Source: Antennarius striatus (lineage: Eukaryota > Chordata > Actinopteri > Lophiiformes > Antennariidae). From it: a DNA stretch of 64,000 nucleotides. Each line of letters begins with the position of its first letter. Within the stretch, counting starts at the first letter, position 1. Below the pieces are notes generated by a model. The model was not told the origin of the DNA. It saw only the letters and a list, made by a program, of their open reading frames with translations, and ran no database searches. The stretch covers positions 22,562,501-22,626,500 of the forward strand of contig NC_090779.1 in the NCBI RefSeq assembly GCF_040054535.1, in the 5' to 3' direction. The position numbers and the translations under genes are program-made. Of the stretch, positions 35,312 through 47,000 are shown in pieces.

Positions 35312-38005
35312 CTACGCATCAGGTGGGTGGGAGGAGCCTGGAACACGGCCAGACTCTACCTCTGTTCCCTCTGCAGGCTTTAAGGCACCTTTCCTGTAGG
35401 CTCTCTGGATCACTGATGCTGCCACCTCTTCCTGTTTCCGCCGCAGGGTGCTGCTTATTGGCTCATCTGACACCTATGAGTAACAAAAGTCAGCTGTAGG
35501 TGACACTAACCACCTGTAGGTAACACAAATCACCTGTAGGTAACAATAATAAAATAATCAAAAACTATAGAAGAAAATAATAAAAATTGTGTCGACTAAT
35601 GAGACTAGAAAGTTATACACACACACACACACACACACACACACACACACACACACACACACACACACACACACACACACACACACACACGCACACACGC
35701 ACATACATATTTCATTAGTTTTTTAGTCAATTGTTTATGTCTTTAATAAAGATTTGATAAAAAACTTTTTTCTGGTGAACAAAACTATTTCTTGATTTTT
35801 GATAACAGTGATGTTTATGGAAGAATAGAATAGAAGAGAAGAGAAGAGAAGAGAAGAGAAGAGAAGAGAAGAGAAGAGAAGAGAAGAGAAGAGAAGAGAA
35901 GAGAAGAGAAGAGAAGAGAAGAGAAGAGAAGAGAAGAGAAGAGAAGAGAAGAGAAGAGAAGAGAAGAGAATCAAACCTTGGATGAATTTATATTGAACTT
36001 CTCCTTCATTCTGTCTTTCAGAGACTCCAAATCTCCAGAATCATTCACCACCTGCACACAGAAGAAGACCGCAACAACATGTAATGATAATCATCATCAC
36101 CATCACCATCACCATTGACAGGTAGTGTTACCTGTGCTGCGAGTTTGTTGAAGACGTCCAAACAGTGGATCTTGTCTCCGGTGAACAGAGGCAGATCCAT
36201 GTGGATCAACTTGACGCTGTTTGGTTTGGGGATCCTCAGAGGATCCTGAAGAGCACTGCAGAAGTCTGACAGTTTACTGTGGAACAGAGGCCAGTCCATT
36301 AAAGTCAATTAGAGCCCACAATAGAGTCCAGTAGAGTCATTTGAAATGTTACATGTCTGACACCACCCATAGTAATAAATCCCTGCTGTGAGGAAGATTG
36401 TTTCAACAAAGTAATAAGAAATTTTTTTAAAATTATATTTAATTAATCAAATTAATTAATTTTTATATTTAAAAAAACCCAATTAGTGAAAAACAATGAG
36501 TAATTTTTCTCACAATAATGATTTAGCATGTCAAGGAATGATAATTGCAATTATGTGAAGATACTAAGTCTAAATTCTTTATTTTAAATGTCTAAACTAT
36601 TTATTTTTGCACATCACTACTTCATAAGAAGTATAAGAAAAAATCACATTGAAACATGTGAATGGCCCCAACTGCTTTATTAGTCATGTGTAAAACTATA
36701 AAATAAAAAATAAAATTTATCCCACAAGAAATGAACTTCAACACAGCAGATGTTGACTTTCTCTTTAAACCTCAAATCACCTTATTCATCCGTATGACTA
36801 TTTAGAAACTGGTAATAATAATCTTGGGATAAACACCAGACCGCATTTACCCCATCAGAGATTATAACTCTGTTTATCTGCGTGCACTTGGGTGAAGCTT
36901 GGACTCACCTGTACGGTATGTACTGTGATGCATCAGCATCAAACCTCCTCCAGGTGTTATAAAACATCTGTAGGTCATCCTCACACAGCGCCTCGCTGTC
37001 ATCCGAGTTGAAGGCCTCCAGGACGACAGCGATGTACAAGTGAACTATTAGCAGGATGTACAGGGTGATGTAGGTGTGAAAAAAGATGATGCCCACTAAT
37101 GGGTTCCCACAGTTCCCTTTGACCATAAATCCTGGGTTCTCCATATCAGGATCACAGTCTGGAGGTGTGTGCATGATGGGCAACAGCAGACCGAACCATG
37201 CGGAGTTGGTGGTGGTCATGAACATGCAGGAGAGGCTGCTAAAAAATGTCTCGAAGTTATGAAGGTCATCTATATTGACATTTTTCTTCACGTAGGCAAA
37301 GTTATACATGCCAAAAATGGAGAAGGTGACCATGATGAGGAAGAGGAGGAGGCTAATGTTGAACAGGGCAGGAAGTGACATCAAGAAGCCCAAAAACAGC
37401 TTTCGGATGGGTTTGGCAAATCGACAAATGCGGAGGATGGGGAAAATACAAAGCAATCGAACCAAAATGAAGGCAGTGGGGGATACAAAGTACTTCTCCA
37501 TTAGGTCTGAGATAAACACGCCTGAAAGAAAGGAAGAAAGAAAAGTTAAAATATGAACACAGTGTGACTCAGTCCTGTTGATTTATTATTTATTTATAGT
37601 AGGCAATACCAAACTTTTACTCAGCTTCTCACATCCCAAAATATAGCACAAAAAATCATATCAACTAGAGATGTTAGTAGACTAGTGATGTTAGTATAGT
37701 GATGAAATAATGACACTGTCATATATGATCATACCAGCGATGCAGAGGAGGACTACGGTGAAGTCTAGAACGTTCAACCAGTTGGTGAAGTAGTGACATC
37801 TGAGGGCGATGATTTTCACAATAAACTCTACTATGTAGAACAGGATGCAGGATAACTCAATACAGGACAGGATGAATAGTTTCTCCATGGAAATGTCGTC
37901 CGTTTGCAACATTAGAGCCACACAGTGCAGCAAGATCACCGCCAACACGAACACATCACAGTACGGACTGGTCACCAGGTCATAGAGCCGAGCCTGGCAC
38001 TGGTT
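35312..38005 (-). other. channel domain IV and C-terminal tail
   Basis: S1-S3 are in 38005-37735 (271 bp, the family size). S4 reads [20 protein letters not shown]; against the canonical R-rich helix the first, third and fourth arginines are I, C and P. The pore has [11 protein letters not shown], placing S where the filter A belongs (37202-37204) and F where the outer-ring D belongs. The tail is EF-hand-like ([19 protein letters not shown]), then [18 protein letters not shown] and an IQ-type motif (VIQRAYRK). The region after S4 is split over four exons; I recall one uninterrupted last exon in mammals. Confidence 0.86.
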
Positions 38006-44000: not shown

Positions 44001-47000
44001 TACAAAACTTTATTTAATTACAGTCAGACATCCTGTTTGACCTTTCACATCCTACCTATTTCAACCTTTTGCTCAGTGTGAAGTGGTGCACAGGACAACC
44101 GTCATCACACTGAACAACAATAACTATGACCGTTTTAAATTATGTGACACCAAAAAATACAAAGATTGAGACGCAACGAAGAAACTCTCACTTCCTCGTC
44201 CTCTCTCCTCTTCAGAGCCTCAACGATCTGACTGAATTCTTTTTCTCTCTGTTTAGCTTCGGCAGCTCTGGCTTCCTCCTCGTCACCAAAGGCCATGGCA
44301 AACCCCACCAGAATAAGACTGAGGATGAAGAAAGTGGTGGGAAAGACCACAAGAATGAAGAAGGCAACGTGGGTTGTCCCTTGTGCTCGTGACGTCTGAG
44401 GATAGACAGGTGAGAGGAAACACAGGTAAGGGAATCACACATAAACTGATCTAAATACTGTCAGAGCATTATTCAAAGTTATTCCAGCTGAACCAGTTAA
44501 ATTCAAATTTAAAGTGTAGTTTCATACTCGTCTGGAGTCAAGAGTGAAGGAAAAGGAAGCTACCTAACCCCCCGGCTAGCTGGCTGACATGACATTAATT
44601 CACGGTCATACACAACCAAGGTTTTTAGTCTGTGTCGGTAAGACAGTACCCACAGAGTGTGTACTGGGACCAGTCACTTACTGACCAGCATCACCAGGTT
44701 GTCCCAGAAGTCCCGAGTCAGCAGTCTCAACATAGACAGTAGAGACCAGCCAAAGGTGTCAAAGCTGGTGAGGCCATAGTTTGGGTTCCTCCCCCACCTT
44801 ATACAGGTGTAACCTTCTGGACAGCTCCTGAACACATCATCATCAATAACAACATTATCATTATTATTATTATTATTATTATTATTATTATTATTATTAT
44901 TATTATTATTATTATTATTATTATTATTATTATTATTATTATTATTATTATTATTATTATTATTATTATTATTATTATTATTATTACCCAGCTGATGAGC
45001 TGTTTCCACACAGTAGAGCATCAAGATGACCAGGAAGGAAGTAATGGTTTTCTAACAGACAGACAGTAAAGTCAGTGGGCATTATATATTAATTGTATTG
45101 ATCACATGATGAATTTTTTAGGAAGGAATGAAGCGGGTAAAATTAATGGTGATTACTGAGGCAGATTTCATTATACATTACCATATAAATTGTTGACAGA
45201 CACCAAATATGTAGCTGATCAGTAGTATTTCTTTGGCAATGTGTCAATCATTTTAAGTCAGAATCAAACAACAACTGACCTGGCTACAAGCTAGAAATAA
45301 AAAAGTTTTATGAAGACAAACCAAAGCATTGTTGGTTTATGTCCTCAACATATTCACAGGCTACAGATTCACATGCTCACATGGACTCATGGTCAAACTG
45401 ATCAGATACTTAATCCAGGTCAGATGCTTAGACTACTGGTATCAGGTAATAGGTGTCTGGTATAGTTCAAGCATCACCTCTGAATTGTAGCTCAACCAAT
45501 CCGAGGCCTCAGTTTGGAGTGAAAGTTTCCAGACTATTGTTTATTATACTGCTATTCATGATGGTGAGAAAAATAGCTTTAGAATTTATTATATCTTTAG
45601 AATTCTACAGAAATTCTTCCTAGTTTAAAAATACTTCAGTGATTCGACTGTTTTCCCTTTTGTGGCTTCACTTCATCATCAACTTCCCTTATGATACAAC
45701 AACTGGACCATGTAGTATAATAACCACAGTATTATCATCATACCGTTGTTGTTCATGTGGGCTTCGTAATCGAAACTGCTTGCGTTGTCATCGTAACTCT
45801 GGGTGAAGTTACTCAAGGGGGAGGACGGCATGATGACACATTTGTGCTTCAGTCTCCCCATGAAAAAATGTAAACCCAACATAGTGAGGACACTGAGGCA
45901 GAACAAAGTCAGGAGGGTGACACCGGCGAGCTTCTCCACGGATTGGGCGAGAGCTCTGAGAGTTGACTTCATACCTGAGAGAGAGAGGCAGGACAGGGGA
46001 GATGACCAACTGCATCAGGAATGGACTTGTCCAGTCAGAGACACAAGAAATGAGCTGCTTTGTGACCTTTGAATGTCAGACTGTACACATGCAGGTATGA
46101 TTCTGAATGGACCTGAGGGACACACACCTGAAATGAGTGGGAGGAGCTTCAGTATTCGAGAAATCGTACTTAGCACTGAAAATCTCCCAAGATGTACGCA
46201 CATAGTCATATATCTGAAACAGATCATCATCATCATCATCATCAGCGTCATTTTGAAGTAACTCAAATTATTTGTCAAGTGTACTATACGACTCCAATAA
46301 GATATGGATTGGAAACAAAAATAAAGATGCAAAACAAGAAAAACGTGTGGGGTGAAAAAACAGATGAAAACTGGTGAAAAATACAATTAAAGATGTACAA
46401 AGTGAGAAGATAGAGAAATGACAAATACAGTCAAAAGAACAAGTGCGGCAATCATATTAAATATTTGTGACTCGATTATGTCATTATCTCAACATTTATA
46501 AACCTTCAGTCCAACATCATGAGCTGAACTGCGACACCTGATTCAATTCATTCTCCGTCAGGCGTGTTATCTCAGTGGGCTCAGAAATCCCCAGAGTGTG
46601 AATGCTGTGGTGAATCAGTGTGTATCAGATGCATGAATGCTTATTACGCTGTGATGATGACAATGACATCCAGCCAGTTCCACGGGTCTCTGAGGAAGGT
46701 GAATTTTCCCCTGCAAAAACCTCTCGACACAACCTTTATGATGACTTCAATTGTGTAGATGGCTACAAACACGTATCTGTTAAAATAGGAGAAAAGCACG
46801 GAAATATTTACATCCAACAATAAAAATAAAGATAAAATAAAAATATAACAAATTGAAAGGCTGTCCTCAGTCTGCACAGCTTTGCACCAGGAACACTAAA
46901 GATCTCATGCTTCCACTGCACCAAACATAAAATTCTCTGTTTCATTTCCCGAAGACAGGCATTTCACCTCTGAGTTCAAATTTTCAGAGTTCAAATTCCT

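Follow-up and report, generated by a model that had tools for sequence, protein, structure and literature searches.

The minus strand of a 64,000-nucleotide stretch of the Antennarius striatus (frogfish) genome, referred to here as the window, carries a scn4ab-like sodium-channel gene with 30 coding exons that span ~16 kb from position 51305 to 35312. The gene arose by duplication of scn4ab early among percomorphs and is distinct from both scn4ab and scn4aa. The favored interpretation, with a rough probability of 0.62, is that the duplicate was kept as an intact frame and that its product is likeliest NaX-like, meaning voltage-insensitive and either non-selective for Na+ or silent, with an independent origin. 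The observations that carry this interpretation are the tree position of the protein, the loss of the selectivity filter, the loss of charges from the fourth transmembrane segments (S4), the conserved cysteines and clade-fixed residues, and the intact frame and splice sites of the frogfish gene.

The frogfish gene encodes a complete protein

Exon-by-exon reading with splice signals was used to assemble the coding sequence. The 30 joined exons encode 1634 residues that are identical to P0001, a protein named 'sodium channel protein type 4 subunit alpha B-like' from A. striatus, and the sole stop is terminal. A PDB search with the two protein halves matched vertebrate Nav1 chains with best E-values of 3e-259 and 2e-260. 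The near-full-length Nav1 match and the existence of relatives exclude chance resemblance. The 29 exons of the gene body (48490 to 35312) contain 1583 codons and a stop with no internal stops or frame breaks. The original prediction counted these 29 in-frame exons correctly and missed a 30th coding exon, E0, located upstream. E0 supplies the start codon and is joined to an extended E1 that begins at 48542. The usual scn4 start methionine, which precedes ASLLPP or APLLPP in aligned scn4 proteins, is ATT in the frogfish (48490-48488). Start-codon loss was considered as a pseudogene sign and dropped because the conserved E0 was found. A leader comparable to E0 is present in all 37 rows of the scn4ab-like clade defined below and in some scn4ab rows.

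The E1-E29 region contains 26 GT-AG introns and two AT-AC introns (28 in total), and the E0-E1 intron has a gt donor and an ag acceptor. The AT-AC intron after E2 (48031-47316) has U12-like signals, the one after E23 (38717-38300) has an ATAAGT donor, and both are intact. The donor after E28 is weak (gtttga). The 30 frogfish exons show no marks of a pseudogene: the frame is unbroken, no premature stop occurs, and the splice sites are intact.

The scn4ab-like proteins form one clade within percomorph scn4ab

Relatives were collected by protein searches with the frogfish protein and with a 27-row alignment. The best 120 rows from each search comprised 133 distinct proteins, 37 of which were assigned to the scn4ab-like clade; all clade counts refer to the matches listed. 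A third search with eel Nav1.4 as the query supplied scn4aa and early-branching scn4ab rows. The closest protein among the matches listed is from the handfish Brachionichthys and is 75% identical to the frogfish protein. The next rows are percomorph proteins with 50-59% identity, mostly named scn4ab-like. Where scn4ab-like and scn4ab rows of the same species are both among the matches listed, they are separate.

A FastTree analysis of 105 of 252 proteins, rooted on bowfin and gar, placed the 37 rows in one clade inside percomorph scn4ab with a support of 1.0. An IQ-TREE analysis of 43 rows, 15 of them from the clade, recovered the clade with a support of 100/100. The percomorph node that contains the clade and leaves out Centroberyx has a support of 100/99 and the next node inside has 81/97; the exact place of the clade among the percomorph scn4ab lines is less certain. 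The clade stem is long (0.21 changes per column). Both trees included the filter and S4 columns, and the loss counts given below are thus not fully independent of the trait. This tree position identifies the scn4ab-like gene as an early percomorph duplicate of scn4ab. The scn4ab-like, scn4ab, and scn4aa genes lie on contigs that differ in length in Chaetodon auriga (29.3, 24.7, and 23.1 Mb), Enoplosus (27.4, 22.1, and 20.6 Mb), and Sebastes (39.3, 32.6, and 27.7 Mb). No description of a scn4ab-like third gene was found in openly licensed PMC papers. The available excerpt of a 2025 paper gives eight scna genes, including two scn4a genes, for zebrafish and other teleosts with stickleback among the species (PMC12604801), and a stickleback row (P0130) falls within the scn4ab-like clade.

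Outside the clade, protein P0119 from Pholidichthys leucotaenia is a separate, recent scn4ab duplicate that is 83% identical to its sister, P0062.

The selectivity filter is altered repeatedly and without a settled replacement

The canonical filter is composed of Asp, Glu, Lys, and Ala (DEKA) contributed by domains I through IV (DI to DIV). The original prediction read D-Q-A-S at these positions and D, E, F, and F in the outer ring, and both readings are correct (filter codons in Table 1). The nearest relative, the handfish, has D-Q-S-S instead of DEKA. In the clade, the DIII Lys is lost in 33 of 37 rows and DEKA persists in four. The same Lys is present in 40/40 scn4ab rows, with P0119 left out, and in 25/25 scn4aa rows. 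The DIV Ala is found in 14/37 clade rows. The clade contains 27 filter strings, and 26 non-DEKA combinations, some with gaps, are spread over the 33 Lys-less rows. One of these is DENA in the flounder Paralichthys. Lys losses were counted by parsimony as the largest Lys-less groups, which yielded three in the clade: Amphiprion, a group of six rows (Lates, Trachinotus, Seriola, and three flatfishes), and a group of 26 rows that includes the frogfish. An additional loss occurred in P0119, which has Ser in place of the DIII Lys and Ile in place of the DIV Ala. Altered or absent permeation, as proposed originally, is plausible from these sequences. The drift of the replacing residues is evidence against selection for a single new filter chemistry.

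Gating charges are depleted throughout the clade

Outside the clade and with P0119 left out, the S4 segments carry 22 charges in 66 of 67 rows and 21 in the remaining row. All 37 clade rows have lost 5 to 10 of these charges and keep 12 to 17; the frogfish keeps 14. A two-residue deletion in the DI S4 that removes R2 is common to the 37 rows, the DEKA rows included. The charge loss is patterned because seven positions (DI R4; DII R4 and R5; DIII R2, R4, and R5; and DIV R2) are charged in every clade row. The DIV R1 is charged in 1/37 rows and the DIV R5 in 3/37. All four DEKA rows are also S4-depleted, and voltage sensing was therefore probably degraded first.

The reading frame is retained in a fast-evolving protein

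Neutral change along the frogfish branch (115 to ~200 residue changes) would be expected to introduce 5.4 to 9.8 stops, and none is present. The Poisson chance of zero stops is 0.004 to 0.00006. The simulation took the present frame as its starting point, set the transition bias to 2, and excluded indels; 166 of the 390 frogfish-handfish differences were not assignable to a branch, and at the lower change count zero stops arose in at least 1 of 300 runs. Eight cysteines that are extramembrane by homology (scn4ab columns 331, 391, 400, 406, 1165, 1185, 1530, and 1545) are kept in all 37 rows. New Arg, Arg, and Trp residues in the DII S4 stretch KLAKSWP are found in 37, 36, and 37 clade rows, and a DIII S6 Gly is replaced by Arg in 35. 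Gaps account for 16 of the 32 fixed-difference columns, and the remaining 16 include several mild substitutions such as Val to Leu. The intact frame, the conserved cysteines, and the clade-fixed residues argue against simple decay. The original prediction had likewise denied random decay, and this part of its interpretation stands on the intact frame, the existence of a 37-row clade, and the fixed new residues; it overlooked the S4 charge depletion, the repeated and widespread filter loss, and the drifting replacements.

The regions whose change most exceeds that of scn4ab are the DIII pore loop, the DIV S4, the DIII S5, and the parts without any variation in the scn4ab set (DII S4, DIII S4, and DIV S5). 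In the DIII pore loop, the pairwise difference is 0.447 in the clade versus 0.015 in scn4ab (~30-fold). Sites that do not vary in scn4ab nevertheless change more slowly in the clade (0.341 versus 0.486). The ratio of nonsynonymous to synonymous change (dN/dS) on scn4ab branches is 0.090 in the excerpt of an apteronotid study (PMC5870949). A Poisson-corrected rate ratio of ~4 applied to this value suggests a clade dN/dS of ~0.36, well below 1, as an indirect estimate.

Clade row P0005 holds a complete 1669-residue frame on a contig of 5678 bases, and clade row P0106 holds a complete 1638-residue frame on one of 5356 bases. The contigs are most likely spliced transcripts because the frogfish gene spans ~16 kb.

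Exon map and genomic surroundings

Table 1. Coding exons of the A. striatus scn4ab-like gene (window positions)
Feature	Position	Strand	Remarks
E0, start codon, conserved N-terminal leader	51205..51305	minus	begins MGRKMSFLEFWKGMKERGALLER...; exact junction to E1 yields P0001
E1, cytoplasmic N-terminus	48254..48542	minus	ATT at usual start Met
E2 (48150-48032) and E3 (47315-47226), domain I S1	47226..48150	minus	AT-AC intron between
E4 (46776-46648) and E5 (46213-46128), domain I S2-S4	46128..46776	minus	S4 lacks two residues, charges kept 2/4
E6 (45974-45744) and E7 (45051-44988), domain I S5 and turret	44988..45974	minus
E8, domain I pore loop	44686..44827	minus	filter codon GAC (D) 44712-44710
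E9 (44395-44192) and E10 (43982-43925), domain I S6 and I-II linker	43925..44395	minus
E11 (43521-43286), E12 (43211-43140), and E13 (43049-42969), domain II S1 to start of S4	42969..43521	minus	S3-S4 loop shorter; one S4 Arg to Pro
E14, domain II S4 to pore loop and S6	42528..42884	minus	filter codon CAG (Q) 42623-42621
E15 (42424-42274), E16 (42160-42021), and E17 (41720-41645), domain II S6 end and II-III linker	41645..42424	minus
E18 (41554-41400), E19 (40554-40381), E20 (40243-40130), and E21 (40034-39750), domain III S1 to turret	39750..41554	minus	S4 three residues shorter
E22, domain III pore loop	39086..39139	minus	filter codon GCA (A replacing Lys) 39130-39128
E23 (38846-38718), domain III S6	38198..38846 (E23-E24)	minus	Gly to Arg; AT-AC intron to E24
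E24 (38299-38198), III-IV linker	38198..38846 (E23-E24)	minus	IFM to IFV
E25, domain IV S1-S3	37735..38005	minus
E26, domain IV S4 to S6	36909..37521	minus	filter codon TCC (S) 37204-37202; S4 charges kept 5/8, Pro gained
E27 (36276-36132), E28 (36051-35977), and E29 (35473-35312), C-terminal EF-like and IQ region	35312..36276	minus	stop

The N-terminal leader RKMSFFEFWRS-KERG-LL is common to the clade and several scn4ab rows (P0003, P0016, P0129, and others). The terminal ESIV of scn4ab row P0016 is absent from the frogfish C-terminus. Classical Nav genes have AT-AC introns at the same two places as the frogfish gene. The C-terminal region after domain IV (36909-35473) is split by three introns; this region is one exon in mammalian SCN genes. 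Two simple repeats could affect splicing: an (ATT)n run (44854-44986) stops ~27 bases short of the E8 acceptor, and the weak E28 donor is directly followed by an (AGAAG)n run (35822-35970). A candidate exon between E10 and E11 (~43811-43763) was rejected when no phase tried fit without a stop, and the P0001 record agrees. A Pfam scan of one read-through frame (34000-48000) gave no match, probably because the coding sequence is divided into short exons that do not share one frame.

Exons of a laminin-beta-type gene lie on the plus strand at 1-15 kb of the window, and nup160 exons lie on the plus strand at 52-64 kb. A tandem array of ~2.3-kb units (24358-33439) lies between the laminin gene and the sodium-channel gene, just downstream of the latter. 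Four copies are 92-100% identical over the compared stretches, and further partial copies extend upstream from 19573.

Discussion

A mechanism consistent with these data starts with a duplication at the DNA level, as the retained introns suggest. The protein would be made, fold as a four-domain channel, and reach the membrane, where it would have ceased to serve as a channel that is voltage-gated and selective for Na+. Voltage sensing would have been weakened first, through the loss of S4 charges, and weakened sensing would have freed the filter, with the DIII Lys then lost at least three times. The depleted S4 charges predict a weak voltage response or none, and the pore would be closed or rarely open at physiological voltages and non-selective among cations if open. 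The filter drift implies that filter chemistry matters little, and for this reason a silent or rarely open pore is the preferred form of the hypothesis. The near-fixed DIII S6 Arg lies toward the inner gate by homology and could, speculatively, hinder opening. The retained protein may act through partners or as a small leak and not by carrying action potentials. A Nav pore deprived of the DIII Lys is no longer selective for Na+, as seen in a fly Nav, where the excerpt of PMC4332693 describes a drop in reversal potential from 71 to 19-24 mV with DENA or DENS. According to the excerpt of PMC8931054, NaX has a reduced number of S4 charges and a DENA locus; its S6 gate is closed, lipid fills its cavity, and the channel is non-selective once unlocked. 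There is perhaps an even chance that this third Nav1.4-type gene became NaX-like repeatedly and independently, with the sensors disarmed first, the Lys then lost at least three times, and a non-canonical job kept. Such a job might be a non-selective leak, or a structural function in excitable tissue that does not depend on channel activity.

Several observations weigh against the hypothesis of a NaX-like or silent protein. Parts of a working pore persist: the DI Asp is kept in 35/37 clade rows, the DII Glu in 25/37 (Gln in 7/37), the DII Trp in 37/37, and the Phe of the IFM inactivation motif in 34/37, with its Met in 28/37. DEKA is intact in Toxotes, Mastacembelus, Anabas, and Channa. P0119 lost the Lys with 20/22 S4 charges kept, which makes the sensor-first order a property of the main clade and not a rule for every duplicate. 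The DII Cys at scn4ab column 727 is kept in just 11/37 rows. Protein databases favor intact frames; the clade-wide intactness is in part a matter of ascertainment, and the frame was checked at the DNA level in the frogfish alone. The mean pairwise difference is 0.389 in the clade versus 0.117 in scn4ab across 19 matched species, two pairs of which are congeners. Every region is fast in the clade (0.29 to 0.54), and the transmembrane cores nearly match the linkers. Fast change everywhere means that relaxed selection is real.

The persistence of pore residues would also fit a working non-selective cation (leak) channel, either constitutive or ligand-opened, whose pore acquired a purposeful new form under selection for altered permeation. 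To the DI acidic residue and the DII Trp can be added the DIV Trp, kept in 35/37 rows, and near-fixed pore-loop and S6 changes such as DI AF to SL and the DIII S6 Gly to Arg. The Lys-less fly Nav and unlocked NaX do conduct with poor or no selectivity according to the excerpts cited (PMC4332693, PMC8931054). A selected pore is difficult to reconcile with a filter that drifts among 26 combinations with none settled, with gaps at filter positions in some rows, with loss of the DIII Trp in 14/37 rows, and with the ~30-fold excess of change in the DIII pore loop. From the sequences at hand, this type of channel is a tentative alternative that we consider unlikely. The pervasive fast change, the loss of S4 charges and filter, the ATT at the usual start Met, and the weak E28 donor would also fit a gene in late decay under relaxed selection, heading to a pseudogene with its frogfish frame still unbroken. 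This outcome is improbable given zero stops versus 5 to 10 expected on the frogfish branch alone, a conserved E0 that supplies the start codon, near-fixed new residues and conserved cysteines, and an inferred dN/dS of ~0.36 versus 0.090 for scn4ab in the excerpt of PMC5870949.

The reduced S4 charges, the Lys-less filter, and the presence of DENA itself in the Paralichthys row could suggest a fish orthologue of NaX/SCN7A instead of a scn4ab duplicate. The clade is nested in percomorph scn4ab within a node supported at 100/99 in trees built without SCN7A rows, and it shares the scn4ab N-terminal leader. The first half of the frogfish protein scored 615 bits against NaX in the PDB search versus 683 to 866 for the other listed vertebrate Nav1 chains, and the frogfish filter is D-Q-A-S, not DENA. 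Orthology to SCN7A is thus extremely improbable. The scn4ab-like clade resembles NaX in having fewer S4 gating charges and no DIII Lys on an otherwise Nav-like scaffold (PMC8931054, in the same excerpt); it differs in its origin, which is independent by the present trees, and in its drifting filter.

The scn4ab-like proteins share their four-domain architecture with teleost scn4ab (Nav1.4b) and scn4aa, and they share the leader and a tree position inside the percomorph group with scn4ab. Unlike these channels, the clade has mostly lost DEKA, has lost 5 to 10 S4 charges, and carries the two-residue deletion in the DI S4; the ESIV terminus is gone from the frogfish protein. The aphid DENS Nav is another Lys-less filter in an intact gene. 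Aphids have no other identifiable Nav, and theirs is split over two genes (PMC4332693, in the portion available), whereas the fish gene is an extra copy beside scn4ab. The apteronotid scn4ab1 is also a diverged scn4ab duplicate, and it arose by a duplication separate from that of the percomorph clade. It is ~14.5 million years old, has changes in its inactivation regions, and is linked to a persistent Na+ current in the excerpt of PMC5870949.

If the favored interpretation is correct, the fish genes form a series from DEKA channels with weakened sensors (Toxotes, Anabas, Channa, and Mastacembelus) to channels with altered filters, and the order in which voltage sensing and selectivity were lost could be read from this series. 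The scn4ab-like gene would then represent a second case, of independent origin, in which a NaX-like state was reached, and it would make it possible to ask directly why a non-standard Nav protein is kept.

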